64,000 nucleotides of DNA, taken from assembly GCF_029962835.1 (NCBI RefSeq), contig NC_080582.1, forward strand, positions 75,946,177 to 76,010,176, written 5' to 3'. The first letter of the stretch is position 1; the number at the start of each line of letters is the position of its first letter. The notes below the pieces were generated by a model. That model was not told where the DNA came from. It made no database searches and saw nothing but the letters and a program-made list of their open reading frames with translations. This DNA is from Magnolia sinica. Lineage: Eukaryota > Streptophyta > Magnoliopsida > Magnoliales > Magnoliaceae. The position numbers were made by a program, and so were the translations under genes. Below, one piece after another: positions 4,288 to 64,000 of this stretch.

Positions 4288-6020
<1,733 letters not shown>

Positions 6021-34951: not shown

Positions 34952-41605
<6,654 letters not shown>

Positions 41606-45420: not shown

Positions 45421-47240
45421 CATTTTCAATGGTAAGTCACACACATTTCCACATCCATCCCTTGGATCTGTCTATATTAACCACACAATTGATGCATATT
45501 CATAAAGTCCTTGATTATCAAAGCAAGGAGCTCATAATTAGAGGAAGAGCCCTAACCTCCGAAAATCGTTTGGTTAACGAGCACATTTTGAATAAACATA
45601 TGACCTATTGGTTTTGCGACCAAAAGCATCACTCTATCTCGATGCCAGGAGTCAACAGTGATCACGGTTTGAATCAAACTCAACCGATTTTGGCAAGCCC
45701 ACGAAGCAGCACACATATCTCATGTGGCTGAAAATCGCTGCCAAAAATCACACCCAATGCCCTGCTTGGTAGCTATGATCCAGGTTGCATTCTATCAAAA
45801 TCCAATGGACAGTCCGTTCATCAGACATACAGACCCACTGTTTATTTGAGCCACACCTGATGAGAGAGAGAAGTTTAAACCTTTGATGAACGATCATCAG
45901 CTCAATGTAAATGTCTACTCATGGCCCATCACGCAATTTCAACCATCCGATTAACTCTCAAGATACGGAACTGGGATTAGATGCCTGCTAAGTTAACTCT
46001 ATTAACATACACTTTTTGTCGGCTCTTTATATTTATATATCATTGATTGACTCAAGTATTTTTTAGTCCTTTGGCCCTATTACCTTTTCAACTTACGTAT
46101 TTGTCTCCTCTTGTTGTCTCTCTGGACCACTTCATACAACCGGCCGACTTGTATTAAAATGATGGAAGGTCACTAGTCCCCCACGAGTGTAGGGGCCGGC
46201 TACATGTGTAAAACATCCAACCTGCTTGTCAGGTGGTCCTGACCTTGTACTTTCTCTGCAGGCATCAAGTTCAAGCTGGTCCACTCATTAGGCGGGCCTC
46301 AATGTAAGAAACTGAGCGCCATAGTTCCATTATATCTTATGCTCTTTCCAACTTGATGAGTGAAACTGCGTGGGGTTGTTTTGGAGCCGGCTCAAAAATC
46401 ATTTTCTGGGCATGAAAAAAGAAGGGAAAAAAATAATAATAACAACTGTTTCCTGGGAAACCATTTCCTCAAAAATGAGTTCTTAGAATTTTGAAGATAT
46501 GTTGTTTACAGTTGTTTTTTAGGTCACAGAATACTATGATTGGACCAACTTTGGCTCAGTTCACTCGAAAATCATATCTTAGGAGATGAATTTTGCTATT
46601 ATTACCATCCAAACACGATAATAAGAGCTTTTTTTTTTTTTTTTTTTGTTGTTGCTTTATGAATTTATGTTGGTGTTTAGGCTCTATATTGCAATTTACT
46701 TTTTAAGTTGTAGCTAAAAGAGACAATTTCACATTTAGGTTGCTTGCTCATAACAAATACCGGGAGAAATTTTGAAGAAAATCAATCCAACTTTCAAGAA
46801 AGTTAATCTTCATGGTGAGGACTATTTTTTAAGGCATGTGCCTTTATGTCATATTCGCATGTATTGAATAGATGGGTTAGATCAAAACCGTTTGTTTGAT
46901 GGTTTGAATAGTAAGTGGGGCATGTTCCAAAAATTCACTGTGTTTTTGGACCATTAGAACATCTATTACTTGACATAAAAAGAAAAAATAATAATAATAA
47001 TAACGAATACAAGTCTCCGCCTGTTTAATAGATGGTTAGGGTTGCTCCACCGATAATAATCTCGTTTAATAGCCAATCGATGGTGTGACCCATAGAATGA
47101 ATGGTTTAGGTCATCATACGCATGTACCACATGTTTCATTCAGAACCTATACAAAGGAAGGCAGAGAGTCTCTGCCTCTCGCAATCTCATTGGTCCACCT
47201 CACCGCTCCTGCCATGTAGGACTAGCCCATCTGTTTCCGT
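45421..47240. other. Intergenic stretch, no gene recognised
   Basis: It contains a 112-codon open frame (45393-45731) without recognisable domains, an oligo-T tract at 46629-46648, an (AAT)n patch at 46989-47003 and mildly GGTCCA-rich filler. I see nothing that supports a gene. Confidence 0.5.
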
Positions 47241-47279
47241 TTCATATTAAAAAAAAAAAAAAGAAAAGAAAAAACGAAA

Positions 47280-47572
47280 ATCTCTCTGCCGTCTTCCCTA
47301 ACGGCAATGGCACCACTAACGGCGCTTTCCATTTCCGGTTCCGGAGATTTTTCAGAGATTTCTTCTTCTCTCATTTCTAATTTCAAATTCTTTTCTTTTA
47401 TAGATGGATTTCATCAAAGCGGAAGAAAAACAGGGGTTTTTCCTTTTGACGATCGGAGGCCCTCTTTCCCCAATCTCTCACAATCCCTCTCGCCCATTTT
47501 CCACCGGGCAGCCGATAGTCGATTTCTACTATTTCGTCTATTCATCCATCGAAGATCCACCCCACCTCACAG
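47280..47572 (+). promoter_or_regulatory. Putative 5' leader exon of the FAR1-like gene
   Basis: CT-rich sequence with TCTCTCTGCCGTCTTCCC and TTTCTTCTTCTCTC ends at CCTCACAG|GTATTT (donor at 47573). The next good acceptor, TTTGCCTTTCAG at 48964, lies four bases before the FAR1-like ATG at 48969. That would make a 1.39-kb 5'UTR intron, common in FRS genes. Open frames through this exon are probably not translated. Inference from splice signals only. Confidence 0.4.
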
Positions 47573-48968
47573 GTATTTTAATTTTAAATTTTTATTTTTT
47601 ACAGATTATTTATTTTATATATTTTATCCTCCATTCAAAATCCTTTTTCTTTTCCCAAGGCTATAGAAAATGACATATTTTACTTACTGGTATAAGCGAT
47701 CATCGTATGATCTGCCTCCAATGCCTGCAGTATATCTTTTTTTTTTTTTTTTTCTAATGCAGATTATTAAATGAGGAACATTGGATGTTGTTTTTGAATT
47801 GCCTGTATGCATGTAGACTAATAGGAGATTTTCAGGATTCTTCCTATGGCGAATCCGAATTTTTAATGTTTTAAGTTGTTTCCACTTATGCATTGTTTCC
47901 ACTTAATGTGATATAAAGATAGGTAACGTGGTTGGTGATAGATTTCTTCTGTTTTTATTTTTATGGTTTTATATTGATGATGATAGATTGATTTCTATGG
48001 CACATGTACGTTCTAAGTATGTCTTGTTTGTTTACCCTTATCTGAAATGAGTTGAGCACTCCTCTCGTTTGGTAGACAGCCTGAAAATGAGTTTAGCACT
48101 CCTCTCCCTCCAATATTAGTGGACATGAATCTAAAAGATCCATATCGAAATGGGTATTTGAAATTTGTATATTGAAATCCTAAAGCCCATTTTGAGGAGC
48201 ATTAGACAAATAATCTGGATCACTAAACAAGGGGACCCACAAGTATCTAAATAAAAGCATTAGGACCACTAGTCCCATTTATTTTTTTTATACATGCAGC
48301 CCAGCAGATTCCTGAAACAGTGTTTTTGACCCATCTACACAGGAAGCTAGCTTGATGACAATACATGTTTATGGTCAAGCACAATGCCAAATCCCCATGT
48401 AATAAACATCCCTAACTACATATCTCCCTCAGCTAAAAGTACGAATCTAAAAGTTCCTGGGCGGAGCCTATGGATTTTGAATTCTTCCAGGGCCTATTCA
48501 AAAATTTGATTTTGTCTACATTAAACCCAGCCCATTGACATCCCTATGAGTAACAAACTTGCATGGTTATGTATCTATTTAGAAATTTGAAAATATTTTA
48601 GATCTTGAATTAAATCAAAGAGAAACATTAATACTTTATATGAGTGATATAAAAGTAATTAACATTAAACTGAGTTATGAGTCCTTGATGGACAAATATT
48701 TACGATTGTTTGATTATATGAATATGGGGACATTATTTAGACTGTTAGTTTTGACATTTCCACCACTGTTAGTTTTAGCTTTGGCCTTAGCTTTAGCTAC
48801 AAGATATTGACATTTCCACCACTGTTAGTTTTGATGTTATTTTGCCACTATACAATAATTTGCAATCAGAACTAAAAATTAATATGCCATGTGTATGCAT
48901 AAATTGATTAGATTATTGTTGTAAAGTAGGTCATTTATTTTCAAACACTATTTTTGCCTTTCAGGTCA

Positions 48969-51873
48969 ATGGAAAGTATAAATTTCTTCAAATCATGCAC
49001 ACCACGTGAGGTGGAGGACACGTCTCAATCATAACCTCATATAGACATTGAATTAGAAATGGATATAAATGAATTAAGAAGTTCTAATTCATCTAGAGGT
49101 GATTTAGGTAAGTATGAAAGTGTATCGAATCTGAAAATTAGTATAGAATTTGAAACAGAGAAAGATGCATACGAGTTTTACAATAGTTATGGATACAAAG
49201 TCGGTTTTAGTGTTCGGATTAATATTAAAAGTATAGACCGCAAGACGAGAGAAGTGAAAATGAGAAATTTTGTCTGCTCTAGAGAAGGTAAACGATCATT
49301 TGATAAACGTAATGTAAATGTAAAGCAACACCGTAATGAAACAAGAACATGTTGTAAGGCATACATGATCATTAGGTTGAAAGTTAATGGTAAATATTAA
49401 ATTATTAATTTTAATAGTGATCATAATCATATACTTGCTTCTCCAGAAGAATCACATTTACTAAAATCACAACAAATTAAAACTTTCTATAGCTCAAGTA
49501 ATGGTAGCTGATGACTGTGATAGATCCAGTATAAAACTAAAATCAATATTTAATTTAATGAGCAGACAAGCTAGTGGTTGATAATATATTGGACATAATA
49601 TGGTATATTACAAGAATTACTTACGGAAAAAAAGGCTGAATGCAATAAAACAATTTAATGCTGGGGGTCTACTGCAATTTTTCAAAACAAAGCAAGTTGA
49701 AGATCTAAAGTTCTTTTACTCTATTCAAATTGATTATAAAGATTGTATGACCAATATTTTTTGGATAAATGGAAGAATGATTTTAAATTACGATCGTTTT
49801 GGAGATGTGATTTATTTTGACACGACGTATAGAACAAATGAGTATGGATAGCCATTTGCACCATTTCTTAGTGTTAATCATCATAGACAAACAAATTTTT
49901 TTTTAGGCGTACTTTTATACGATGAAGCCATTGATTTTTCAGATTGTTGTTTAAAACCTTTTGTGATGTAATGTTTGGAAGAATGCCTCAAACCATTCTC
50001 ACATATCAGGATAAGGCGATGTCAAGTGCAATTAAAACGAAATTAACAATAACAGTTCACTGTATTTATGTATGACATATGTTTCAAAATGCGTGCAAAC
50101 ATCTAAGTCATTTATTTAATTCTTCTCAATTTTTTGATAACAATTTTAGTAGATGTGTCTATGATTTTGATAATGAGGGTGAATTCCACCATGCATGGGA
50201 AAAAATGATTTAGAAATATGATCTTACAAATAATACATGGTTGCAACAATTATTTAATGAAAAAGAGAAGTGGGCATTAGTGTATAGAAAAAATGTATTT
50301 TGTGCTGATATGAAAAGCACACAACGTTGCGAAAGTTTGAACAAAGAGTTGAAGAGATACTTATATCTAGGGCAAAATATTCTCAGATTTTTTGAACACT
50401 TCGAATGATTGGTGGATGATAGAAGGAACGCCGAATTAGAAGCAAATTTCAAAACGATACAAAGTTCATCAACTGTGTTGTTTCCTATTAATATCTTGGA
50501 GCATGCAGCTAGTGTCTACACAACGAGCATTTTTAAATTATTCCAGTCTGAGTATATCAACAGTCTTGGTCAAACTGTTGAAAAATTAGAAGAGTCTGGG
50601 ATGATGATTAAATACCAAGTACGTGAAAGTAAAAAGCATAGACTCCACATCATTACCGTGAACTCAACAGATGAATTTATTGAATGCAGTTACAGAAAGT
50701 TTGAATTTATGGGTATTTTATGTTCCCACACATTAAAAGCAACAAATCATACCCTCACAAGACTGCTAGCGAGATACATCTTAAAGAGGTGAACCAAAGA
50801 AGCTACTTCCATTTCCTTTCCATTGGTTAATAGAGATTGTGGCTTGGATGGAGACTCTAAGAAACTACGTTCTTATCGTTATAATAGCTTGATTTCCAAC
50901 TTTGTTAAGTTGTCATCAATGGGTTGTGAAAGTGAAGAGTCATTTCAATGTGCTACTAAATATTCTGAGTTGATGCATCAAGAAATGCAAAAAATATTTA
51001 AAGAAAAAGCAAAATTAAAAGGAATATCTTCCATTGAAGATTGTTGCAATAATAACGAGAGTTATAGAGAGGATGATTGTGTAATTGTAAATGTTGACAA
51101 TGCACAGTTGAAAGACAAAATCATTGAGATAAAAAAAGAAGCTCACGAAACAAGAATGAGGAATCTCAATGACTTTAACAAAGAAGATCGTGTAATTAAA
51201 AGAAAAGGAGCTGAAATTGATGAAGGTAAAGAAGAAGCTTATAAAATCAAGAGAAAAGAGCAATGTCGTGGTAGACGTAGATTTAAGAATTGTTTGGAAA
51301 AGGCAAAAACAAAGAAACGCCAAAAGAAATTGCAGAAAAGTGAACCAATGCTATACCCTACTAATGAAGATCTCAGAGATGCGTCAGATCCAATCCATTA
51401 TCATACATGTCTCACAAAGGTACGTTGTAACTATCTTGATTTAATGTATAAATTTAAATATTTTAAAATCAATTAAACAATTAAATGATAAATTTATATT
51501 TATTTGTGAACTTGATTTTCATGTTGTTAGTTGTATTAGGGATACAATGGTGTTTGTTTGGATCCCGTGACTATGTACTTTCAATCAGCGTTATCTCATT
51601 CCGTCATTCAACCACATCAATCCGTGCAGGACCATCTCCAACCCTCGATTCACTTTCCTAATAATTTAAGTTTCACTCAATTACTTAAGGTAAGGAATTG
51701 CATTTATGATAAATTTAAATAATGTATATTAATTCTCTTATATTTTTATGATACTAACTTCGATTCATGGAATGATTAATATGCAGAATACTACAAATTA
51801 CGCAGCATTCCAACATCCTGTGGCAGGTTGCAGTAGTAGTTCAATAATTGGAAGAGAAGGACAACAACCATAA
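48969..51873 (+). pseudogene. FAR1-related sequence (FRS) / MULE-type transposase, decayed
   Basis: FRS proteins are transcription factors descended from Mutator-like transposases. Order of parts: a FAR1 zinc domain (EFETEKDAYEFYNSYGYKVG, then NFVCSREGKR, then DHNHILA); a MULE transposase region (VIYFDTTYRTNEYG, TYQDKAM, CADMKSTQRCESLN, FEHFE, LVDDRRNAELEA); and a SWIM-like finger in which CxC has become CSY before GILCSH. The first exon runs 48969-51419 (AAAG|GTACGT). Short exons at 51540-51689 and 51787-51873 keep phase 0 and end in TAA. I count about nine in-frame stops (49032, 49398, 49579, 49582, 49849, 50073, 50211, 50406, 50790) and two offsetting frameshifts (about 49.4-49.5 kb and near 49.94 kb). 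It cannot make a full protein. Whether it was a host FRS or a transposon's own transposase is open. Confidence 0.9.
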
Positions 51874-52199
51874 AGGTTTTGTACTATTATGTAATGATGA
51901 TGGTTGTTAGAGAGGAATAAAAACCATAAAGCTTTTGTGGGTTTTGCCTCTTGTTGGGCTGGTGATGATGAGATGGGCTTCTGGTTTTTAAAGAGTTGAA
52001 TGTGATTGAGATTTCATATGTGGAAACTTATGGTGTTGCAATCAGGCTTTTGATGATGGGCCCCACTCTTCTTCAAGGAGCTGTTGCAAGAGGAGATGTT
52101 ATAGTGCATTTCGATGTTTAGATTTTATTAGCCTTGGCCTATTTTGGTGAACTCTTTTTTTTTTTTTCTTTATCCATCCCATGGATTGTTGATACTGGG

Positions 52200-52230
52200 T
52201 TTTTTGTGTGTGTGTGTGTGTGTGTGTGAT
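52200..52230. repeat. (TG)n microsatellite
   Basis: About 11 GT units after a GGTTTTTTGT run. 51874-52320 otherwise reads as 3' flank without a gene. Confidence 0.85.
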
Positions 52231-52320
52231 ATTTGCTAATGGCAATGATTTTAGATAGTCATGAAGTGATTGTTTTAATCCCTTTTTTTAGGACCATTTG
52301 ATTTAAAAATTTATCCCTTA

Positions 52321-52552
52321 TGTCTTAGTGGCCCATCTAATGAATTGACAGCTTGATTTTTCCCAACCAGGTCATCTTTGTGGCTGGAGCATCAGGTGCA
52401 CTTCCCTGATGTCTCCCATGGTGCAAAACAGCAGAATGTCTTAGTGGCCCATCTAATGAATTGACAGCCTGATTTTTCCCAACCAGGTCATCTTTGTGGC
52501 TGGAGCATCAGGTGCACTTCCCAGATGTCTCCCATGGTGCAAAACAGCAGAA
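52321..52552 (+). repeat. Tandem duplication, 116-bp unit
   Basis: The unit beginning TGTCTTAGTGGCCCATCTAA at 52321 restarts at 52437 and begins a third time at 52553 before diverging. The first two copies are nearly identical, so the duplication is young. Confidence 0.9.
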
Positions 52553-52849
52553 TGTCTTAGTAGATTCTGAAAACTGACTGTTCCCGGTCATGGCCTACTT
52601 CCAGCTTCGAAGGCATGAGCTTAATAATCTTCCCAGACACTTCCATGGAGAATCGTATGGAACATAACTGCCACATGTCTTGAGCTTTGTTTTCCTCTAA
52701 ACAAAGGAGACATCTCTTTATTTATGTTATGCTTCGGTGCAATGGGATTTGCTTATTAGAAGTAGTTCTGGAAATATCAAATTAAGCGTTTTTTTTTTTC
52801 TCCTGTTTTCTTTTGAATGCCTAAGCTTGTACTCCTTGCTTTCATATAG

Positions 52850-53045
52850 GTCTTAGCAAATGAAGTAAACATCGGGTATGAGGATATGGGCAATCAGCAG
52901 GCAAGTGATCTCTCCTGCTCCCTACTGAATTTTGATGTCTCCATCCAGGGCAGTATATGATATATCATTACTTACAATCTACAGGTTCTGAAGTTTAATG
53001 GGACTCGGATCAGAAATATATGGCACCTAGCACATCTTGTTGACT
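52850..53045 (+). pseudogene. DEG9: DEG9-like serine protease fragment (two exons)
   Basis: Exon one (52850-52900) encodes VLANEVNIGYEDMGNQQ. Exon two (52985-53045) encodes VLKFNGTRIRNIWHLAHLVD. Both match, in order, the region after the catalytic domain of plant DEG9 (nuclear Deg/HtrA protease) as I remember the family. The intron between has a GC donor (CAG|GCAAGT) and a normal acceptor (CTACAG), and exon two stops at a GTAAGC donor. The protease domain and the C terminus are absent. This is a genomic fragment with introns, not a retrocopy, and lies next to two other foreign fragments on the same strand. Confidence 0.8.
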
Positions 53046-53666
53046 GTAAGCGCTCTGCTGACTGTTATTTGTCCTGGAACTATATGGTCCTGGGCCTCAG
53101 TGATTGTACTGTTTGCTCTGGCTCACAGTTGTGAATGTGGGGCGCATGGTTTGGTGATCAGATTCCAGACCATTGATCTGATGGGCCAAAGCATGGATGA
53201 GGGATCCAAAAGGTTTTTCAGATTTGAAGATCCTGCTCTTAGATCTTTGGCCCCATTGAATGTGGACCATTGCCATAATTCTTTTCCCAACCATCTCTGT
53301 GGGCCCACTGCTTGAAAGTTTAGGACCAAATGGAGCCTAAGTCCCTTTTTAAACATATTAGATTCATTTGGTCGTCACAAGCCAAATGGAGCCTAAACCC
53401 CTTTTTAACTCTGCCAATGCAATTCCTTGCATTGCCGGTCCCAAGCCCGGGTAAAGGAGGAGGGAGAATGGGCATCAAGATGAGTTGTGTACTATTCATT
53501 CATTTGTATGATTGCAGCAGGTATTTTGAAGATATTGTTTTGATTGATTCAGTTCTGTTTTTCATTGCAGTTTGTGGTGTGTTTGCCATACATTCCATTC
53601 ATAAGTTCACCCATATCCAGAAAATCAGACCATTCCAAAACACAGGCGGTTCACACGACACCCAAT

Positions 53667-54090
53667 GATTGGGATGGGAAGCTCGCCATGCTAGAAATGC
53701 AATTGGACGAGATGCAGCTTCAATTCAAAGAAACTGAAAAGATGATAGTGAAGGAACAAGAGGCTATGAAGGAAGCAACAAACCTAATTCCTGTCATACA
53801 TGAGGTCCCAGTCATTGAAAGTGTGCTGTTGGATAAACTCATGACCTTTGAAAATGACATACTGAAGGCGGGATTGCCATCTCAAGGAGTTTTGTGATGA
53901 TTAACATAACATTTCAAATTAGTTTGCCTAAATTCCATGGGTGAACATGCATTTGCATTTCTAGCTACTTGCGATATTTAAGTCACTCACCATTAATTTA
54001 TCGTAGGCCATGCTGAGCTCACTGGAAAAGAAGTTAGATGAAAGTGAAAGAAAGTGTGAAGAAACACAGAGGCTTAGTGAAGAAAGGCTT
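53667..54090 (+). pseudogene. Myosin XI coiled-coil fragment (two exons)
   Basis: 53667-53870 encodes a heptad-rich run, KLAMLEMQLDEMQLQFKETE then KEQEAMKEATNLIPVIHEVP. This is the typical plant myosin XI coiled-coil start, where the family has an IPVIQEVPVI phrase. 54007-54090, after acceptor TTATCGTAG, continues with AMLSSLEKKLDESERKCEET and LSEERL. Motor, IQ and DIL parts are missing. The first exon is not followed by a GT donor. It is a fragment of an unlinked motor-protein gene, in the same orientation as its DEG9 and GWD neighbours. Confidence 0.8.
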
Positions 54091-54175
54091 TGTATGGGGT
54101 ACTATTAATTATTTGTATGGGGCCCCAATGAAAAGGATCCTGTTGTTATTTGATAGATGTTTTACTTTCCTTCAG

Positions 54176-55090
54176 GGACAAGGCTTCATGGTTGGGGTTC
54201 AGATAAATCCAATCTCAGGCATACCTTCTGGATATTTGGTAGATATTTTCAACTTCTCTTAGGACCCGTTTGGCTGGGTGGATTGGAATGGATTGAATGG
54301 TATTAGGGTGGATGGCATGGATTTCAAAGTAATGATGGTGTTGATAGTGGATTGTCTCAAAATCCATGGGATTGCTATATTCCGAATTGCTATATAGAGT
54401 CTGTTTGGCATGCCCAGCCAATCCTGGGATTAAACCTTCCATCCCTTCCAATCCCTCAAAGCAAACACGTCCCAGGAAAATTCGAACGGATTAGGGTGGA
54501 TTGGATAGCATTTAAAGGTAATGGTGTTATCAGTGGATTGTCTTAAGATCCATAGGATTGCTATTTCCCGGGATCAGATCACCCGGTCTGTTTGGCATGC
54601 CCGGCTAATCCCGGGATTTAACTTCTAATCCCTTCCAACACCATCCAATCCCTTCCAATCTGCCCGGCCAAATGGGCCCTTCATGTCCATCATAGTAATC
54701 ACCAATCTGCTCCAATTTAGGAATCCAGCTACATGCATGCTCTGATGAATTATTAGGACAGGAATTGCTGCAATATGTTCTAGATCATGTTGAAGATAAG
54801 AGGGTGGAATACTTGCTTGAGGTTAGTGGAATAGTGATGCAGGCTTTTTCTTTTAGTGCTCATGCTATATTCTCTTCAAATTTCTTTTAAGTAGTTGTAT
54901 TTAATTGCTGAAAATGTGATACCGCAGAGATTGCTGGAGGCTCATGCAGAACTTCGACCTTTGCTTCTTAAATCTCAGGATCACTTAAAGGATCTATTAT
55001 TTACTCATTTGGTGTCCACAATTGCCCTTGATTTTACGGCCGTTGGGAGGGGATATGAGGAACTGAATAATGGTGAACCAGAGGTGGATT
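54176..55090 (+). pseudogene. GWD1: Alpha-glucan water dikinase (GWD) fragment, three exons
   Basis: Exon at 54176-54238: GQGFMVGVQINPISGIPSGY (acceptor CCTTCAG, donor TTG|GTAGAT). Exon at 54762-54821: ELLQYVLDHVEDKRVEYLLE (acceptor GGACAG, donor GAG|GTTAGT). Exon from 54928: RLLEAHAELRPLLLKSQDHL then KDLLF and RGYEELNN. All three are in phase 0 and in the order of the central part of GWD, the plastid enzyme that phosphorylates starch. The last exon diverges from the family after KDLLF, where extra THLVST appears and the VRTAVE part is shortened. The swivelling phospho-His and nucleotide-binding parts are absent. Its second intron (54239-54761) has taken up a MITE. Confidence 0.85.
54261..54680. 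mobile_element. MITE inside the captured GWD intron
   Basis: The left end AGGACCCGTTTGGCTGGG is inverted at the right as complement of AGGGCCCATTTGGCCGGG, about 28 bp with five mismatches. The inside consists of two roughly 200-bp direct halves sharing GGATTGTCT(C/T)A, GATCCATAGGATTGC-like and CTGTTTGGCATGCCC words. No clear target duplication was read. Confidence 0.75.
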
Positions 55091-55345
55091 ATTGTTGGCA
55101 TGTCCACAATTGGTTTCCATTGCACTATTTACTCATTTGGTGTCAATGTGTAGTATCTGAATATTTTACGAAATGTTGTCCAACTACAGATCATGTGCAA
55201 GATTCCCTTACAATGGGACTGTGGGTGTGTGAAATGTCTATAGAAATTGGATATCCTTGAACTCAAAATCAATCTGTAATCATGACCTTAAGCCCTCTAA
55301 TGTCATAAGGATTAATCAGGTTGAGTGCAACCTCAAGGAGTAATC

Positions 55346-55400
55346 AGCTACGGATCTAATCTGTAGCTAAATATATATTGCTACGGATTTTATCCGTAGC
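55346..55400. repeat. Two GCTACGGAT hairpins
   Basis: AGCTACGGAT (55346-55355) pairs with ATCTGTAGCT (55359-55368), and GCTACGGAT (55380-55388) pairs exactly with ATCCGTAGC (55392-55400). They are the only copies of this pair in the window and lie 250-310 bp after the GWD fragment. Such short inverted motifs resemble subterminal repeats of CACTA transposons; that link is inference. Confidence 0.7.
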
Positions 55401-55539
55401 TTTTTATCCTCTTTCTGGCACTGTATATTTCGAATTTCTTCACATATTTATTTTATCAAATTTCAACTAAAGAGGCCTCATCTCCAAGATTGCTCCGGTT
55501 AAGACCTGAATGATTGGATTTTCTTTTCAATTTAATTGG

Positions 55540-58500
55540 CAACCCCTTCACTTTATCTAATGAACCCCGTCACTTTATCCAGTAATCCAGTCACTGTCTA
55601 GCATTATTGTGTTTATTTAACCCATATCCAAATAATAACTAGCTAGCATGCAAATACATGTCCGGCAACCCATCACTTTTTTCAACAATCTTATGACAAG
55701 AACTTAGATAGAATGTTTAGCTTTATTGAGGCATATGTGGTCTGTCCGAAGACTATCAATAAGCCCTTTCTACCCTATCGAGACAAGAATCACACTCTCA
55801 TCTTTCCAACCGAGGAATTTGTTGGAGTGTACTTTGTCTAATGAACCCCGTCACTTTGTCCGACAACTCGTCACTTTTTTCAACAATCTAATGGTTGGGT
55901 TGGATTGCAACGTCGTCACTGTTTCTAGTGAACCCCGTCACTTTGTATAAGTGAACCCCGTCACTTTGACTACTGAACCCCGTCACTTTGTCTATACCCC
56001 GTCACTTTGTGCCGCAACTTCGTCACTTTGTCTATCAACCTGTTACTTTGCGTAACTTCGCACTTTGTCTATCAACCCCATCACTTTGCTGCAACCCGTC
56101 ACTTTTTTCAACAATCTAATGGTTGGGTTGGTTGCAACATCGTCATTATTTCTAGTGAACCCGTCACTTTGCACTACAACCCCGTCACTTTGTCTATTGA
56201 ACCCGGTCACTTTGCACTGCCTCGTCACTTTGTTTATTAAACCCCGTCACTTTGGCAACTTCGTACTTTGTCTATTAAACCCGTCACTTTACCGCAACTT
56301 CTTCACTTTGTCCTATTGAACCCCATCACTTTGTATAAGTAAACCCCGTCACTTTGCACTACAACCCCATCACTTTGTCTATTGAACCCCATCACTTTGA
56401 GCAACTTCGTCACTTTGTCTATTAAACCCCGTCACTTTGTACAACCTTGTCACTTTGTCTATTAAACCCCGTCACTTTTTGCACTGCAACTTCTTCACTT
56501 TGTCTATAACCCCATCACTTTGTATAAGTGAACCCCGTCACTTTGCACTTCAACTCCGTCACTTTTTCTATTGAACCCTGTCACTTTGCACTGCAACTTC
56601 GTCATTTAGTCTATTGAACGTTGTCACTTTGCACTGCAACTTCGTCACTTTGTCTATTGAACCCCGTTACTTTGTTCAGCAACCCGTCACTTTTTTCAAC
56701 AAATTAATGGTTGGGTTGGATTGCAATATCGTCACTGTTTCTAGTGAACCCCGTCACTTTGCACTACAACCCCGCTACTTTGTTCATTGAACCCCGTCAC
56801 TTTGCACTGCAATTTCGTCACTTTGTCTATTGAACCCCGTCACTTTGTGCCGCAACTTCGTCACTTTGTCTATTGAACCCCGTCACTTTGCATTGCAACT
56901 TTGTATCTTTGTCTATCAACCCGTCACTTTGCTCAAAACCCCGTCACTTTTTCAACAATCTAATGGTTGGGTTGGATTAATATCGTCATTATTTCTAGTG
57001 AACCCCGTCACTTTGTCTATAGAACCCCGTCACTTGATACAATTTCGTCACTTTGTCTATTAAACCCCGTCACTTTGTCGCCGCAACTTCGTCACTTTGT
57101 CTATCAACCCCGTCACTTTGAGCAACTTCTTCACTTTGCCTATTGAACCCCATCACTTTGTATAAGTAAACCCCGTCACTTTGCACTACAACCCCATCAC
57201 TTTGTCTATTCAACCCCGTCACTTTGTCTACACTTCGTCACTTTGTCTATTAAACCCCGTCACTTTGTATTGCAACTTCGCCACTTTGTCTAGTGAACCC
57301 CGACTTTGCACTGCAACTTCTTCACTTTGTCTATCAACCCCGTCACTTTGTATAAGTGAACCCCGTCACTTTGCACTACAACCCCGTTACTTTGTCTATT
57401 GAACCCCATCACTTTGCACTGCAACTTTGTCACTTTGTCTATTGAACCCCGTCACTTTGCACTGCAACTTCGTCACTTTGTCTATTGAACCCCATCACTT
57501 TGTTCGGCAACCTGTCACTTTTTTCAACAATCTAATGGTTGGGTTGGATTGCAACATCGTCACTATTTCTAGTGAACCCCGTCACTTTGCACTACAACCC
57601 CGTCACTTTGTCTATTGAACCCTGTCACTTTGCACTGCAACTTCGTCACTGAGTCTTCTGAACCCCGTCACTTTGTACTGTAAACTCATTACTTAGTCTA
57701 GTGAACCCTGTCACTTTGTACTGCAACCTCGTCAGTTTGTCTAGTGGAACCATGTCACTGTCTGTCAACCTGTCATTTTTTTCAACAATCTAATGGTTGG
57801 GTTGGATTGCAGCCTCGTCATTGTGTCTAGTAAACCCTGTCACTCTGCACTGCAACCTCGTCTCTACGTCTACTGAACCCCGTCACTTTGTATTGCAACC
57901 TCGTCACTTAGTCTAGTGAACCCCGTCACTTTGTACTGCAATCTCGTCAGTTTGTCTATTGAACCCCGTCAATTTGCACTGTAACTTCATCACTTTGTCT
58001 ATTGAACCCCGTCACTTTGTATAAGTGAACCCCGTCACTTTGCACTACAACCCCGTCACTTTGTCTATTGAACCCCGTCACTTTGCACTGCAACTTCGTC
58101 ACTTTGTCTATTGAACCCCGTCACTTTGCACTGCAACTTCGTCACTTTGTCTATTGAACCCCGTCACTTTGCACTGCAACTTCTTCACTTTGTCTATTGA
58201 ACCCCATCACTTTGTATAAGTGAACCCCGTCACTTTGCACTATAACCCCGTCACTTTGTCTATTGAACCCCGTCACTTTGCACTGCAACTTCATCACTTT
58301 GTCTATTGAACCCCGTCACTTTGCACTGCAACTTCTTCACTTTGTCTATTGAACCCCATCACTTTGTTCGGCAACCCGTCACTTTTTTCAACAATCTAAT
58401 GATTGGGTTGGATTGCAACTTCTTCACTTTGTCTATTGAACCCTGTCACTTTGTCTATTGAACCCCGTCACTTTGCACTGCAACTTCGTCACTTTGTCTA

Positions 58501-58858
58501 TTGAACCCCGTCACTTTGTTCGGCAACCCGTCACTTTTTTCAACAATCTAATGGTTGGGTTGGATTGCAACATCGTCACTATTTCTAGTGAACACCGTCA
58601 CTTTGTATAAGTGAACCCCGTCACTTTGCACTACAACCCCATCACTTTGTCTATTGAACCCCGTCACTTTGCATTGCAACCCCGTCACTTTGCACTGCAA
58701 CCTCGTCCTTTGCACTGCAACCTCGTCACTTTGTCTAGTGAACCCCGTCACTTTGTCTAGTGAATCTCATCACTTTGTAATATAACCTCGTCAATTCATT
58801 AAGTGGAACCAGGTCACTTTGTCCGGCAACCTGTCACTTTTTTCAACAATCTAATGGG
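55540..58858 (+). repeat. 3.3-kb minisatellite of (A)ACCCCGTCACTTTG units
   Basis: The core is a 22-bp unit, CACTTTGTCTATTGAACCCC plus GT, alternating with a 21-bp variant, CACTTTGCACTGCAACTTCG plus T. A longer spacer, GGCAACCCGTCACTTTTTTC followed by AACAATCTAATGGTTGGG, returns about nine times, giving a higher-order structure. Copy quality is better from 57.4 to 58.6 kb. Translation in any frame gives periodic Leu/Ser/His-rich peptides; none is a gene. The right edge is cut by a palindromic-family copy at 58859; the left edge (55540-55835) is looser, with a gap of unrelated sequence at 55610-55650. Confidence 0.95.
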
Positions 58859-59215: not shown

Positions 59216-60980
59216 TCCCCGTACCCTTCTTATGCCCTGAAGATTTCTATAAATAACGAAATGGCCTTGACATTCATATTTTATACTCTGGCAGAGTTGG
59301 AAGCTTGATACATGGGCACTCAGGAAATTTACTCAGGTCATATGTTCAAAGTCAAAACATTTTAATGGTGAAAGTCATGTTTCTCAGTCACGATCTCAAA
59401 GATCAGATTTGTTGAGAAATCCTAACCGCGGATTGATGGAAGCTTAATTTTTGTTTCCTGATGCATCTAAACTGGGTCCCGACAGTTTAATTTGAATTCA
59501 TTTTAAGCCATGTGTGCATTTTTTAATAATTTCTAAGCGCATGCATATCACCCATCACACACGGTCGGAGTATCTATTCTCTTCTATTTACAACTTTATA
59601 TGTTTGCTACAATACATGCGGATGCACTGAAATTTTTGCCTAGCATTAGTTGCGTAACTAGGATAATCACTGCTATCGCTGATGTATGAATCCTGTGCAC
59701 AGTTCTGCAGTTATAATATGGGCCTGAAGTATCCAAAGTTGACATTTCAAGCCTGCCTGGTAGATAACTAATTAATATAAGTGGGTCTGACCCTACAAAC
59801 CAAATTTGTTGATTTTAATCCCACAAGGCTTCCTACTTTAAAGCAAGAATGAAACTTGATAGTTCAATTCATACAATTCAAATCAAAACTTGTAGACTCC
59901 AATTGAACAATTTGAATTGTCCATTAAATCCAAAACACATTTAACAGGCCACCACAAAAAAGAAAAAAGAAAAAAGAAAAAAACAGAAGCCTTTATCAAT
60001 CCTTGATTTGGCCCTATTGCACCTGTTGCCTGATTTGGTTTTATTGTATTGATAGGATGATCCAATCCATAACTTGGATACTCTAATTGAACAATCTAAA
60101 CTGTTAACAGGCTACCATGCAACAATTGCATTCATTGGACCTTTAAAAAAAAAAAAAAAACTCCTGAGAAGATCATCCCCAGCCACATTTGAGCAGAAAG
60201 AGCTCCATATAGCTGTTATACTCCTTGCGAATTGTTATCAACCGACAAGCCTGTCAAAAGAAAAAAAAAATGAAAGAAATGAAAGAACTTAGAAACCTGC
60301 TTATGAAATGATTTATTTTGCACATGATTTTCTTCTTGCTTATGAAATGATTTATATTGCACATGATTTTCTTCCTGCTTAAAAATGATCATCAACCATA
60401 ATTCAAGATACAAAATTCATGATTAAGATGATCTAATCCTAATGCACCCAATCAATGAAAGCAATAGTTTTCAAACATCCACCTAGCAGGACCTACCATG
60501 GTAAAAACTAATTAATCTTAAAAATGTTCTATGCACTACAATCTAGCCTTCGTGAATGATTCACTAACAACCTTCAATATCAGCTTGGAGCCATGAACAT
60601 AGATTCTCCCTCTTACAGTACATGTAAGATAGCAATCATATGACAGTTAGCCCCAATGCTTTCACTGATAAAGGAGAATTTTGGCCTGAATTCCATCCAC
60701 AACAAGACCCATCATGAATACAAGCAAAGCATATTTGCATCCCGCAACAACTATGATAATAATAAAAAATAAAATCAAAGCACATACCTTCCATTAAAAA
60801 GAGCAACATGATTGTAAGTATGTTTCATACTACATGTCACATTACTGTGGTGTAATCATTTTGCCCAGCATCAGTTGTGCAACCAACTTTTTTCGTTCAA
60901 AATTCATTGGCCCCGATGATGAAAGTGGATCGTAAGTATGTTTCATAAATTTTGTATAAGAAAAAGGAAAAAGAAAAAAG
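59216..60980. other. AT-rich stretch; 44-bp tandem duplication at about 60297-60384
   Basis: No gene is recognised. A unit of about 44 bp (CTGCTTATGAAATGATTTAT onward, to ATTTTCTTC) is repeated twice at 60297-60384. Several oligo-A tracts occur. Confidence 0.6.
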
Positions 60981-60989
60981 AAAATTTAC

Positions 60990-62005
60990 CGAGTTGAAAT
61001 CAAATACATCTCCACGGGAAAGACATTCCATAAATTTCATTAAGTAGACACCACAATCAACCCTGCTAATACCATACAAAGATAGATAAATATCATTAAA
61101 TAAGAGTAAATTCATATTTTAAATGGAAAATGACTTACGAATTTGGTTGCTGGGGGCATTCTTGGTCTATAGAGACAGTAAATCCATCACATTCTATTTC
61201 ACAATTTTTTAATAAATGGATCTTCAAACGTGAAACCTACATTTATAATGAAGAAGTATTAAGTACTTTCACAATCACAATTTTTTAAGTTGAATGTTCT
61301 TCCATTGAACAAAGTAATATACATACCATCGTATTGATGTAGGTTGATGTTTGGTGACCTTTGAGAGAGCTGTAAATTGAAAATATTTTTCTCTTTAAGT
61401 CAATGACAAGCAAGTACCAATGGGACATTTCATTCAATGGGATCATAATTTTTTCTTTACTCTTTAGATCGTAAGGAATCTTCCTTATAATACATTCAAT
61501 TTTTACATCATTACGATCATAATATATATCTTCAATTTTCTTGTCTCCTTTCGCTATAATTCTCGTTGTACACACATATTTCTGCAATGGTAAAATTTAA
61601 GTAAAATTAACATCATTTAAACATAAATTACTTATATATGATAATTTTGTTACACATATAAATGAGGAAGCTTACATGAAACCATGCGTTGAAGAAGTGA
61701 CATTTTAACAAATTATGCCCACCACTATTTTCTCGAATAGCCATCAATTCAGTATACTTGGATATAACCTGCATCGAATTTAACATTTTAATAAATTAAG
61801 TCATATACATGAATGATGGATCATACCTCCTTGTAATATAACATTTAAATTATACCTCAGATGGCGGCCAAGGCTCCAATTGGTTGTGGGAAGACGTTTC
61901 ATTTCTAGAATCACTCCTTTTCAATGGCCATTTACCCCCACCTCCAAGAAATCCCCCATTCTCATTGGCCCGGATAACATCAAAAAATTGAGCATTTATC
62001 ATCAT
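60990..62005 (-). CDS. Ulp1-like cysteine protease domain gene (five exons, transposon-associated)
   Basis: Ulp1 (C48) proteases cleave SUMO-like modifiers. Minus-strand exons 61856-62005, 61676-61768, 61327-61581, 61139-61236 and 60990-61062 join with consensus splice sites and no stop, giving about 224 codons. Exon three has the His motif, MSHWYLLVIDLKRKIFSIYSS. Exons four and five meet as QQPNS|VDCGVYLMKFMEC, supplying the oxyanion Gln and the catalytic Cys. The residue 17 after the His, Asp in active Ulp1 (YDSL/YVDSL), is Ser here (YSSL), so activity is doubtful. The first ATG is preceded by an in-frame stop, and no ending exon was found after the GTAAAT donor at 60989, so one or both ends are missing. 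Ulp1 genes of this type commonly ride in Mutator-like and CACTA elements. The FAR1-like gene lies on the opposite strand 9 kb away. Confidence 0.75.
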
Positions 62006-62878
62006 TCACCTCCAAGGACTCCATGTGCAAACAATCAAAATTCACTCCAACCATGTTGAGCTTCCATATTTAAGATTCTCCTTCATTTTCTTCGGAATAA
62101 ATCATGATCCTTGTTAGCAATACTCAAGTTTAAAATCCTTATTTTAATTTAATTTTATTTTTTTAAGCGTAAATTGACTAAATGTTTAAAACTCTGTATT
62201 TTTAGCAAGATAGGCATTAATAAATAAATATTTGGACAAACCAAAATAAAACTCCATATTTTAAAGAAGATGGGCAGATAGTGAAGATTTCAGAAGAAAC
62301 AGATCAATTTGTATGGGGAATACTTCCAAAGGAAGGATTTAACAGAGGCAAAAGATAATATTAACCCACTATTCGATTACCTTTATAATAGTTGCTTATA
62401 CATTTAGAAATTTTAATCGTTTTAATTGAAATATTCACCCTCAACCTTATTTTAAATATAACAAACCCATATGCATATATAGCTGGCTTTTTGTTTTTTT
62501 GTTTTTTTAAAATTTTTTTTTTTTTGTTTGTTTTTTTTCCATTTTATTGAATTGGAACCATGTTAAACCCAAACTTTTCATTCTCCGTATTTCTGGGTTT
62601 TTGCTTTCTTTCTTCTACCAAACTTTGACTAAAATTTTAATGATAGAGACTTATTTAAACAAGAACGTTTCCCCCTACTATTCTTTTGACGTCTTGTGTT
62701 TGCTAAATATGGTCTTGAGTAACTAAGCATAGCCCATGTTAGATGGAGCCACCTCATAGAATTCATGTATAATGAGGTCTTGTTTTATCATATAAATATT
62801 GTTAGCGCCTCTCAAAACTCTTGTCGGGGAGAAAAATCAATGTTCTAATGTTATCTGCCTATCCTACTCATTCTTCAG
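62006..62878. other. AT-rich stretch, no gene recognised
   Basis: It holds a T-rich block at about 62488-62540 and AT-rich filler. No open frame over 60 codons and no recognised element. The last bases form the acceptor of the next feature. Confidence 0.5.
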
Positions 62879-63187
62879 ATTGATTTGCAAGCGATTCTAT
62901 CAGTTCTTCCTCTTCCTCTGAGTCAAGGAGTCCTGTTATCCCTTCTCCAACAGCTAGAATGCGATATTGGAAACAATACCTCCCAGAAGCTAGATTGGAT
63001 GGTAGACGTTGTTGTTGCTATAGATCCAGTGGACCCAACAATTGCGGCGCACGGGCGACCAATATTTGAACAGGTTCATCAGATATTGGACCACCAGCGG
63101 GTGCTCCCGACCACCACCACAGCTGAAAGAAGCAGCATCCGCCTCATAATGTGTGCAATCAATTCAGTATTGAAGACCTGCAAATGA
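62879..63187 (+). pseudogene. VCS: VARICOSE/EDC4 last exon, orphan fragment
   Basis: 102 codons plus TGA after acceptor ATTCTTCAG. They match the extreme C terminus of plant VARICOSE, the EDC4-type scaffold of the cytoplasmic mRNA-decapping complex. Landmarks are [20 protein letters not shown], then [31 protein letters not shown] and a final CK. The frame is fully open and ends where the family ends. No other VCS exon (WD40, proline-rich or coiled part) is seen upstream; the preceding kilobases hold an opposite-strand protease gene. It is therefore best read as a displaced exon, the fourth host-gene piece on the plus strand in this region. Confidence 0.85.
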
Positions 63188-64000
63188 CATTTCTCTTTCT
63201 CATTTGTACACAAACTGTTCAGGCCTTTTGGCTGTTGCAGAAGGACGTACAGAAAACAAGGAAGAGGGTGTGTGTGTGTGTAAAGAATAGGAGAGTTTGA
63301 GAAAAGTTGGGGCTCGTTTGGCACCTTTTTAATTGGAATGCATTGTGATCCAATTCACGATTACAATGGAATCCATGTGAATCAGAATCCTTAGTTGAAT
63401 TTGGCAGCTTGTAATTGGAATGCGCTTTAATCCCAAAAAAAAATTGTATTTAGATGTCCGTCATGAATGTGTTGGAACTCTTTAGTATATTCATAGGAAC
63501 CTTAATTTGATTAGTTAAATCTGCTTTAATATCGCAAATTAGTGTATATATATGATGTTTGACAGAATGATCGTAGTAAGCCTATTGAAATATATATTTT
63601 CACCTAAGATGAGGAAATTCCGAGCCTCTAGTAGGCCGAAAACCTAGGGATCACAAACGAGTGACTTGTCAATGTTTTTTAACTGTGCATTTAAATTACC
63701 TATGTCTGGACAGTTTCGATCATTCAATTGGTGTGATTTAAGTGATGCAATTGCTGAATGAATTGTTTCGGGGTATCATTAGCATGCCAAGTGTATGGTA
63801 TATTAGTAGCCTAATAACACCTTTGTTACTCGTGCAACTCTCTTACTTTTAAAAGAGGGGCAAGATAGCCATTTCACACCAATTAGCTTGAATTCATGAC
63901 AAAATAAAATGATCTCAAAACACTCCAAAATATGTGTTTTCATTTACCTTTGAATCCAAGGCAGTAAAAACACCATTTTGGTGCATTTACCTCCAATTGC
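63188..64000. other. Right edge, non-coding; MITE-like start at 63310
   Basis: A GGGGCTCGTTTGGCACC word at 63309 resembles GTTTGG-type MITE ends and is followed by AATTGGAATGC repeats (63343, 63416). It also contains a (GT)n patch at 63267-63280. No gene is seen to the window end. Confidence 0.5.

Follow-up and report, generated by a model that had tools for sequence, protein, structure and literature searches.

In rice, tomato, and other plants, Pack-MULEs carry host gene fragments between the terminal inverted repeats (TIRs) of a MULE, show 9–10 bp duplications, and have spread to multiple copies; they are described as nonautonomous (PMC3310237). In grapevine, MuDR-like and Jittery-like families contain ULP sequences, and one Mutator family includes cellulose synthase sequence from introns as well as exons (PMC2528002). 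KI-MULE, or Kaonashi, elements are non-TIR MULEs with a Ulp1 domain gene (PMC13317346). The soybean CACTA element Tgm-Express1 carries five unrelated host gene fragments that are spliced into chimeric transcripts (PMC1947982). Gap-filling and fork-switching models have been discussed for the capture of such fragments (PMC8277862). A literature search for Pack-MULE together with magnolia found no paper.

The window analyzed here is a 64,000-nucleotide stretch of Magnolia sinica DNA, and its right part is occupied by one ~18-kb MULE that extends from ~47,156 to ~1.2 kb past the window end and has ~0.9-kb TIRs. The element shares with Pack-MULEs the host gene fragments between MULE TIRs, the 9–10 bp duplications, and the multicopy spread; source loci were found for its DEG2, GWD, and VARICOSE fragments, and a repeat family only for its myosin fragment. 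In contrast to Pack-MULEs as described (PMC3310237), the copies in the window, C1, and C18 bear a transposase gene (broken, broken, and open, respectively) and are far larger. Copies without transposase appear to be of the Pack-MULE kind. Like the grapevine families (PMC2528002), the element combines a ULP1-like region with transduplicated gene pieces; unlike them, it unites four host fragments and a Ulp1 remnant, with relative ages, in one element. It resembles KI-MULE in bearing a Ulp1 domain gene, broken in the window copy, but differs from those elements (PMC13317346) in having long TIRs. Several unrelated host fragments in one element are also seen in Tgm-Express1 (PMC1947982), which is a CACTA element, whereas the element in the window is a MULE. 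The event is thus ordinary MULE transduplication, probably assembled stepwise. Events of this kind are well documented in plants; the stages are unusually clear here. The locus records, with relative dates, how a MULE took on several unrelated gene pieces. Because one genome holds the source loci together with a sister element and a derivative shortened by deletion, both the order and the mechanism of capture can be tested.

Structure of the host element

The first-pass annotation had left the carrier of the fragments open between a Helitron, a Pack-MULE, and a CACTA element. Long TIRs, target-site duplications of 9–10 bp (9–11 bp are expected for MULEs), and a FAR1-type transposase, with a MULE transposase in related copies, settle the carrier as a MULE. 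The left TIR (47,156–48,041, + strand), which lacks the outermost ~21 bp of other copies, recurs in inverted orientation at 64,412–65,184, in the window extended rightward, with identities of 91.5 and 92.3%. The right terminus of the element lies at 65,207 (window coordinates extended past the window end). Inverted matches to the left TIR (~0.45 kb plus ~0.34 kb, 91–96%) are located at the right ends of the window copy, C10b, C14, C6, and C8. The common terminus reads GAGTC(C/G)GGATCC, and at least one such terminus was found in 10 of 11 DEG2-bearing copies (C69 was not read). Four of the five copies whose two ends were read are flanked by target-site duplications, with 9 of 9 positions identical in C6, C8, and C14 and 9 of 10 in C18, i.e., a 10-bp duplication with one mismatch; the C14 duplication sits in an AT repeat and is hence weak. 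No target-site duplication was seen at the ends of the fifth copy, C10b, and this counts against the explanation favored below. Since the window copy is devoid of its left terminus, its own target-site duplication is not readable. Outside the shared terminus, the window element at its right end has ~20 bp in common with the C1 copy at its left end, as if this lineage had moved with extended ends.

The decayed transposase gene (49,035–51,870, + strand) has broken frames with pieces of FAR1, RNaseH-like, MULE, and, weakly, SWIM domains, several of the Pfam pieces being below the cut-off. The gene is interrupted in C1, too. In C18, it is an open 746-aa ORF with FAR1 (PF03101, 3e-24), MULE (PF10551, 3e-27), and SWIM (PF04434, 1e-5) domains. 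Because of its broken transposase and damaged left end, the window copy is probably dead and immobile. Between the transposase gene and the first captured fragment lies an exon-like dispersed repeat (51,909–52,319, + strand) with 84–90% matches over most of its length elsewhere, among the matches listed (40 of 96 candidates were scored); one 47-aa frame in it gave no Pfam match and no significant PDB match. A 22/43-bp minisatellite (CCCCGTCACTTTG) occupies 55,849–58,793; its length differs among copies, and it is also present in a diverged element on C9. At 60,900–61,596, on the − strand and thus antisense to the cargo, there is a remnant of a Ulp1 (peptidase C48) gene, in which each of two frames gave a PF02902 match, one at 1.5e-9 and the other at 1e-4.

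Captured fragments and their sources

Three unrelated exon-intron fragments, from a DEG protease, a myosin, and alpha-glucan water dikinase (GWD), follow one another on the + strand with their internal exon order intact, just where the first-pass annotation had placed them. The 2.3-kb interval given for them holds as to the fragments themselves, while its borders are shifted to ~52,320 at the DEG2 start and 55,151 at the GWD end. Nor is the cargo limited to three pieces, as a fourth fragment, of VARICOSE/EDC4, is located within the same element. The first-pass annotation had mentioned neither this fragment nor the element itself, nor the repeat nested in GWD. When 50 random 2,241-bp slices were drawn from window positions 1–46,241, none had a match of at least 60 bp to any of the four source loci, and the resemblance of the array to these loci is not due to chance. 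The common orientation of all four host fragments is expected in 1 of 8 cases by simple counting and is not significant alone.

The first fragment (about 52,320–53,324, + strand) comprises an intron, an exon at 52,853–52,902, an intron, an exon at 52,987–53,046, and an intron. It had been assigned to DEG9, which was not borne out: the two-exon peptide scored 59.3 bits with Protease Do-like 2 compared to 28.3–28.7 bits with two entries naming Do-like 9, and a DEG2 parent locus was found. The piece also matches Pfam PDZ_3 at 9e-12. At C14:26.814–26.816 Mb, it aligns at 97.9% over 884 bp, introns included, with abrupt ends, and additional PDZ_3 exons flank the matching piece on both sides. Homology thus runs through the introns of the C14 parent and stops sharply at the fragment border. 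Together with the VARICOSE homology, which covers ~2.5 kb and is largely noncoding, this agrees with the proposed capture at the DNA level; retroposition is ruled out, as introns are present at parent-level identity. The DEG2 piece contains a 116-bp tandem duplication (52,320–52,551), of which copy C42 apparently has one unit. A 180-bp filler (53,325–53,504, + strand) separates DEG2 from the next fragment and is present in all three element copies checked (C18, C1, and C10b).

The second fragment is a two-exon coiled-coil piece (53,505–54,090, + strand) that we take to be myosin XI; a PDB search gave no match at E ≤ 1, and Pfam gave nothing significant. It is closest to a dispersed repeat family, with identities of 93.5 and 91.5% to C7:19.409–19.411 Mb, and at least 10 loci outside the element match it over some 290 bp or longer. 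That the C7-type loci are intact myosin genes is not supported: they are dispersed, and several carry stops. The match to a dispersed repeat family suggests that the myosin piece is probably second-hand, i.e., copied from an already dispersed repeat. No intact myosin gene could be pinned as its source, which speaks against the favored explanation; candidates are a locus at C5:20.716 Mb and, at C3:110.008–110.011 Mb, an array of exons. The latter (C3:110,008,035–110,010,936) contains several head-to-tail pairs of myosin XI–like exons and is possibly tied to the origin of the dispersed repeat.

Splice sites had been reported as mostly kept. Read by eye, this is correct for most of them. In the myosin piece, exon 1 has a GC donor and exon 2 is truncated ahead of a donor. 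The GC donor is found in the window and in eight of eight other element copies tested, compared to GT in the single C7 repeat locus examined. The donor of DEG2 exon 1 is GC as well, likewise in the DEG2 parent locus.

The third fragment, with three GWD exons, spans 54,098–55,151 on the + strand (54,098–54,259 and 54,683–55,151). Its identity as alpha-glucan water dikinase is confirmed by a PDB match of the peptide to this enzyme at 3.6e-26. The fragment matches the GWD locus at C19:2.36 Mb at 94.5 and 88%, and exons next to that match, recognized by eye, are presumably the following GWD exons. Further GWD fragments exist elsewhere in the genome, some of them nearer over short stretches (up to 97%). 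A GWD intron is interrupted by a nested ~423-bp MITE-like insert (54,260–54,682) that has no counterpart in the C19 locus. The insert is of high copy number, with many matches at 84–91% (a query with the whole array gave 4,659 first-look candidates, of which 40 were scored).

The fourth fragment is the 3′ region of a VARICOSE/EDC4 gene (61,858–64,000 and on to 64,341 past the window, + strand), with an EDC4_C match at 1.2e-13 in the frame 62,849–63,184. It is 96.2% identical to C10:6.33 Mb over 2,493 bp, mostly noncoding. The 22 matches to this piece fall into 13 element-like places (14 rows, as C18 is represented by two), seven in a cluster at C10:6.23–6.51 Mb, and one short match. The cluster (C10:6,230,587–6,509,416) is a tandem array of seven VARICOSE/EDC4-like copies on one strand over 280 kb, 78–96% identical to the captured piece. 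Since a second cluster copy also reaches 96% (over 601 bp), the source is narrowed to the cluster and not to one of its members. Two of the 13 element-like places, both on C3, are absent from the DEG2 matches and are probably derivatives of the element. In C18, about 33.6 kb of unrelated position intervenes between two parts of the VARICOSE piece. At 61,858, about 6.1 kb present in C1 is missing from the window copy, and because the VARICOSE match extends on in C1 and C18, we attribute the difference to loss from the window copy by deletion. Upstream in C1 and C18, there are presumably extra VARICOSE exons, for which no Pfam or PDB match was obtained.

Copies, a deletion derivative, and a sister element

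A genome search for further copies of the whole array, as the first-pass annotation had proposed, found it in C18 at 97%. The full array is present in the window and in C18, where both element termini are retained. The C1 copy is without 53,653–54,652. Eight copies, with DEG2 and myosin, match up to 54,161 only. In the six of these eight that were read across, position 47,624 (47,622 or 47,625 in two) is joined to 52,267, and there is no transposase gene, as in nonautonomous elements. In the same six copies, 54,161 is joined to 55,093, i.e., 54,162–55,092 is deleted; this join falls within GWD and shows 4 bp of microhomology. C42 was read in part (a terminus near DEG2), and C69 is represented by match coordinates only. 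A late gain of GWD in the window lineage is ruled out, since the shared deletion begins and ends within the GWD segment.

The DEG2 piece is found in 12 places, namely, 11 element copies and the parent gene; there is no other DEG2 DNA match. In 10 copies (C69 left out), it differs from the parent by 1.0–2.4%, with 0–2 differences per 110 exon bases and 8–17 per 657–660 intron bases, and five substitutions and one 3-bp indel are fixed on the stem of these copies. Plant substitution rates are 1.5–7e-9 per site per year; with these rates, DEG2 capture would date, as a rough estimate, to about 1–6 million years ago. In a small DEG2 tree, C6 clusters with the parent (support of 0.91). This grouping is not predicted by a single capture without later exchange and so tells against the explanation we favor.

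A sister element on C9 has TIRs about 70% alike and bears the minisatellite and a GWD piece, and its transposase end matches over 111 bp at 95.5%; no DEG2 match and no myosin match was found in 12.6 kb. The extents of the GWD pieces are unlike between the window element family and the C9 element, so there may have been two independent GWD captures, again a point against the favored explanation. A 1-kb piece of a related locus at C11:20.201 Mb contains none of the array and none of the other sources compared.

Alternative carriers and probable order of capture

In principle, a CACTA element could have built the array, or GWD and the minisatellite could have arrived with a piece of CACTA that became nested in the MULE. 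This was suspected because ~55,345–55,410 carries CTACGGAT/ATCCGTAG motifs, which are common in CACTA subterminal regions, and because the flank is repetitive; moreover, the C9 element has this stretch along with the minisatellite and a GWD piece. However, C9 is itself bounded by inverted repeats resembling those of this MULE. CACTA elements have CACTA ends and a 3-bp duplication, whereas copies of the array end at the MULE termini and have duplications of 9–10 bp, a test that covers element ends. We therefore disfavor a CACTA origin and consider it improbable. Even less probable is assembly by a Helitron that was then swallowed by the MULE. The myosin piece does belong to a dispersed repeat family; however, a MULE terminus was found in all DEG2-bearing copies but C69, which was not read, and outside these copies only the gene itself matches the DEG2 DNA. 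Helitrons have no TIRs and produce no target-site duplication; here, the window element has TIRs, and element copies have target-site duplications. A normal gene cluster or segmental duplication would retain introns and order, as observed, but is next to impossible, since the copies are TIR-bounded and the parents of DEG2 (C14:26.8 Mb), GWD (C19:2.36 Mb), and VARICOSE (C10:6.3 Mb) are not neighbors.

The array is thus very probably the cargo of a transposase-bearing MULE that took up host DNA stepwise and then spread. Host DNA with its introns would have been acquired between the transposase gene and the right half of the element and beside the right inverted repeat, possibly when repair switched templates or filled gaps. 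Divergence and the one sister element suggest an order. GWD was probably captured first, because it is 88–95% identical to its gene and the diverged sister MULE also bears a GWD piece; DEG2 would have come late, and myosin and VARICOSE at some stage prior to diversification of the copies. Once loaded, the element would have moved by ordinary TIR-directed transposition. Through deletion, one derivative was stripped of the transposase and of most of GWD, and it multiplied into a family of the Pack-MULE type. The ~423-bp high-copy insert that split GWD belongs to the later damage.

It is doubtful, though conceivable, that the element is a self-mobilizing, recently active MULE in which one host fragment after another is added at a cargo site following the transposase gene, all of them in the sense orientation. 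Exons of the transposase, DEG2, myosin, GWD, and VARICOSE could then be united in one transcript, or small RNAs could arise that target several parent genes simultaneously.

Elsewhere in the window, two closely similar ORFs located 35 kb apart (4,429–5,292 and 39,182–40,033) look acyltransferase-like by eye, and an ORF at 34,952–35,515 is perhaps related to them.
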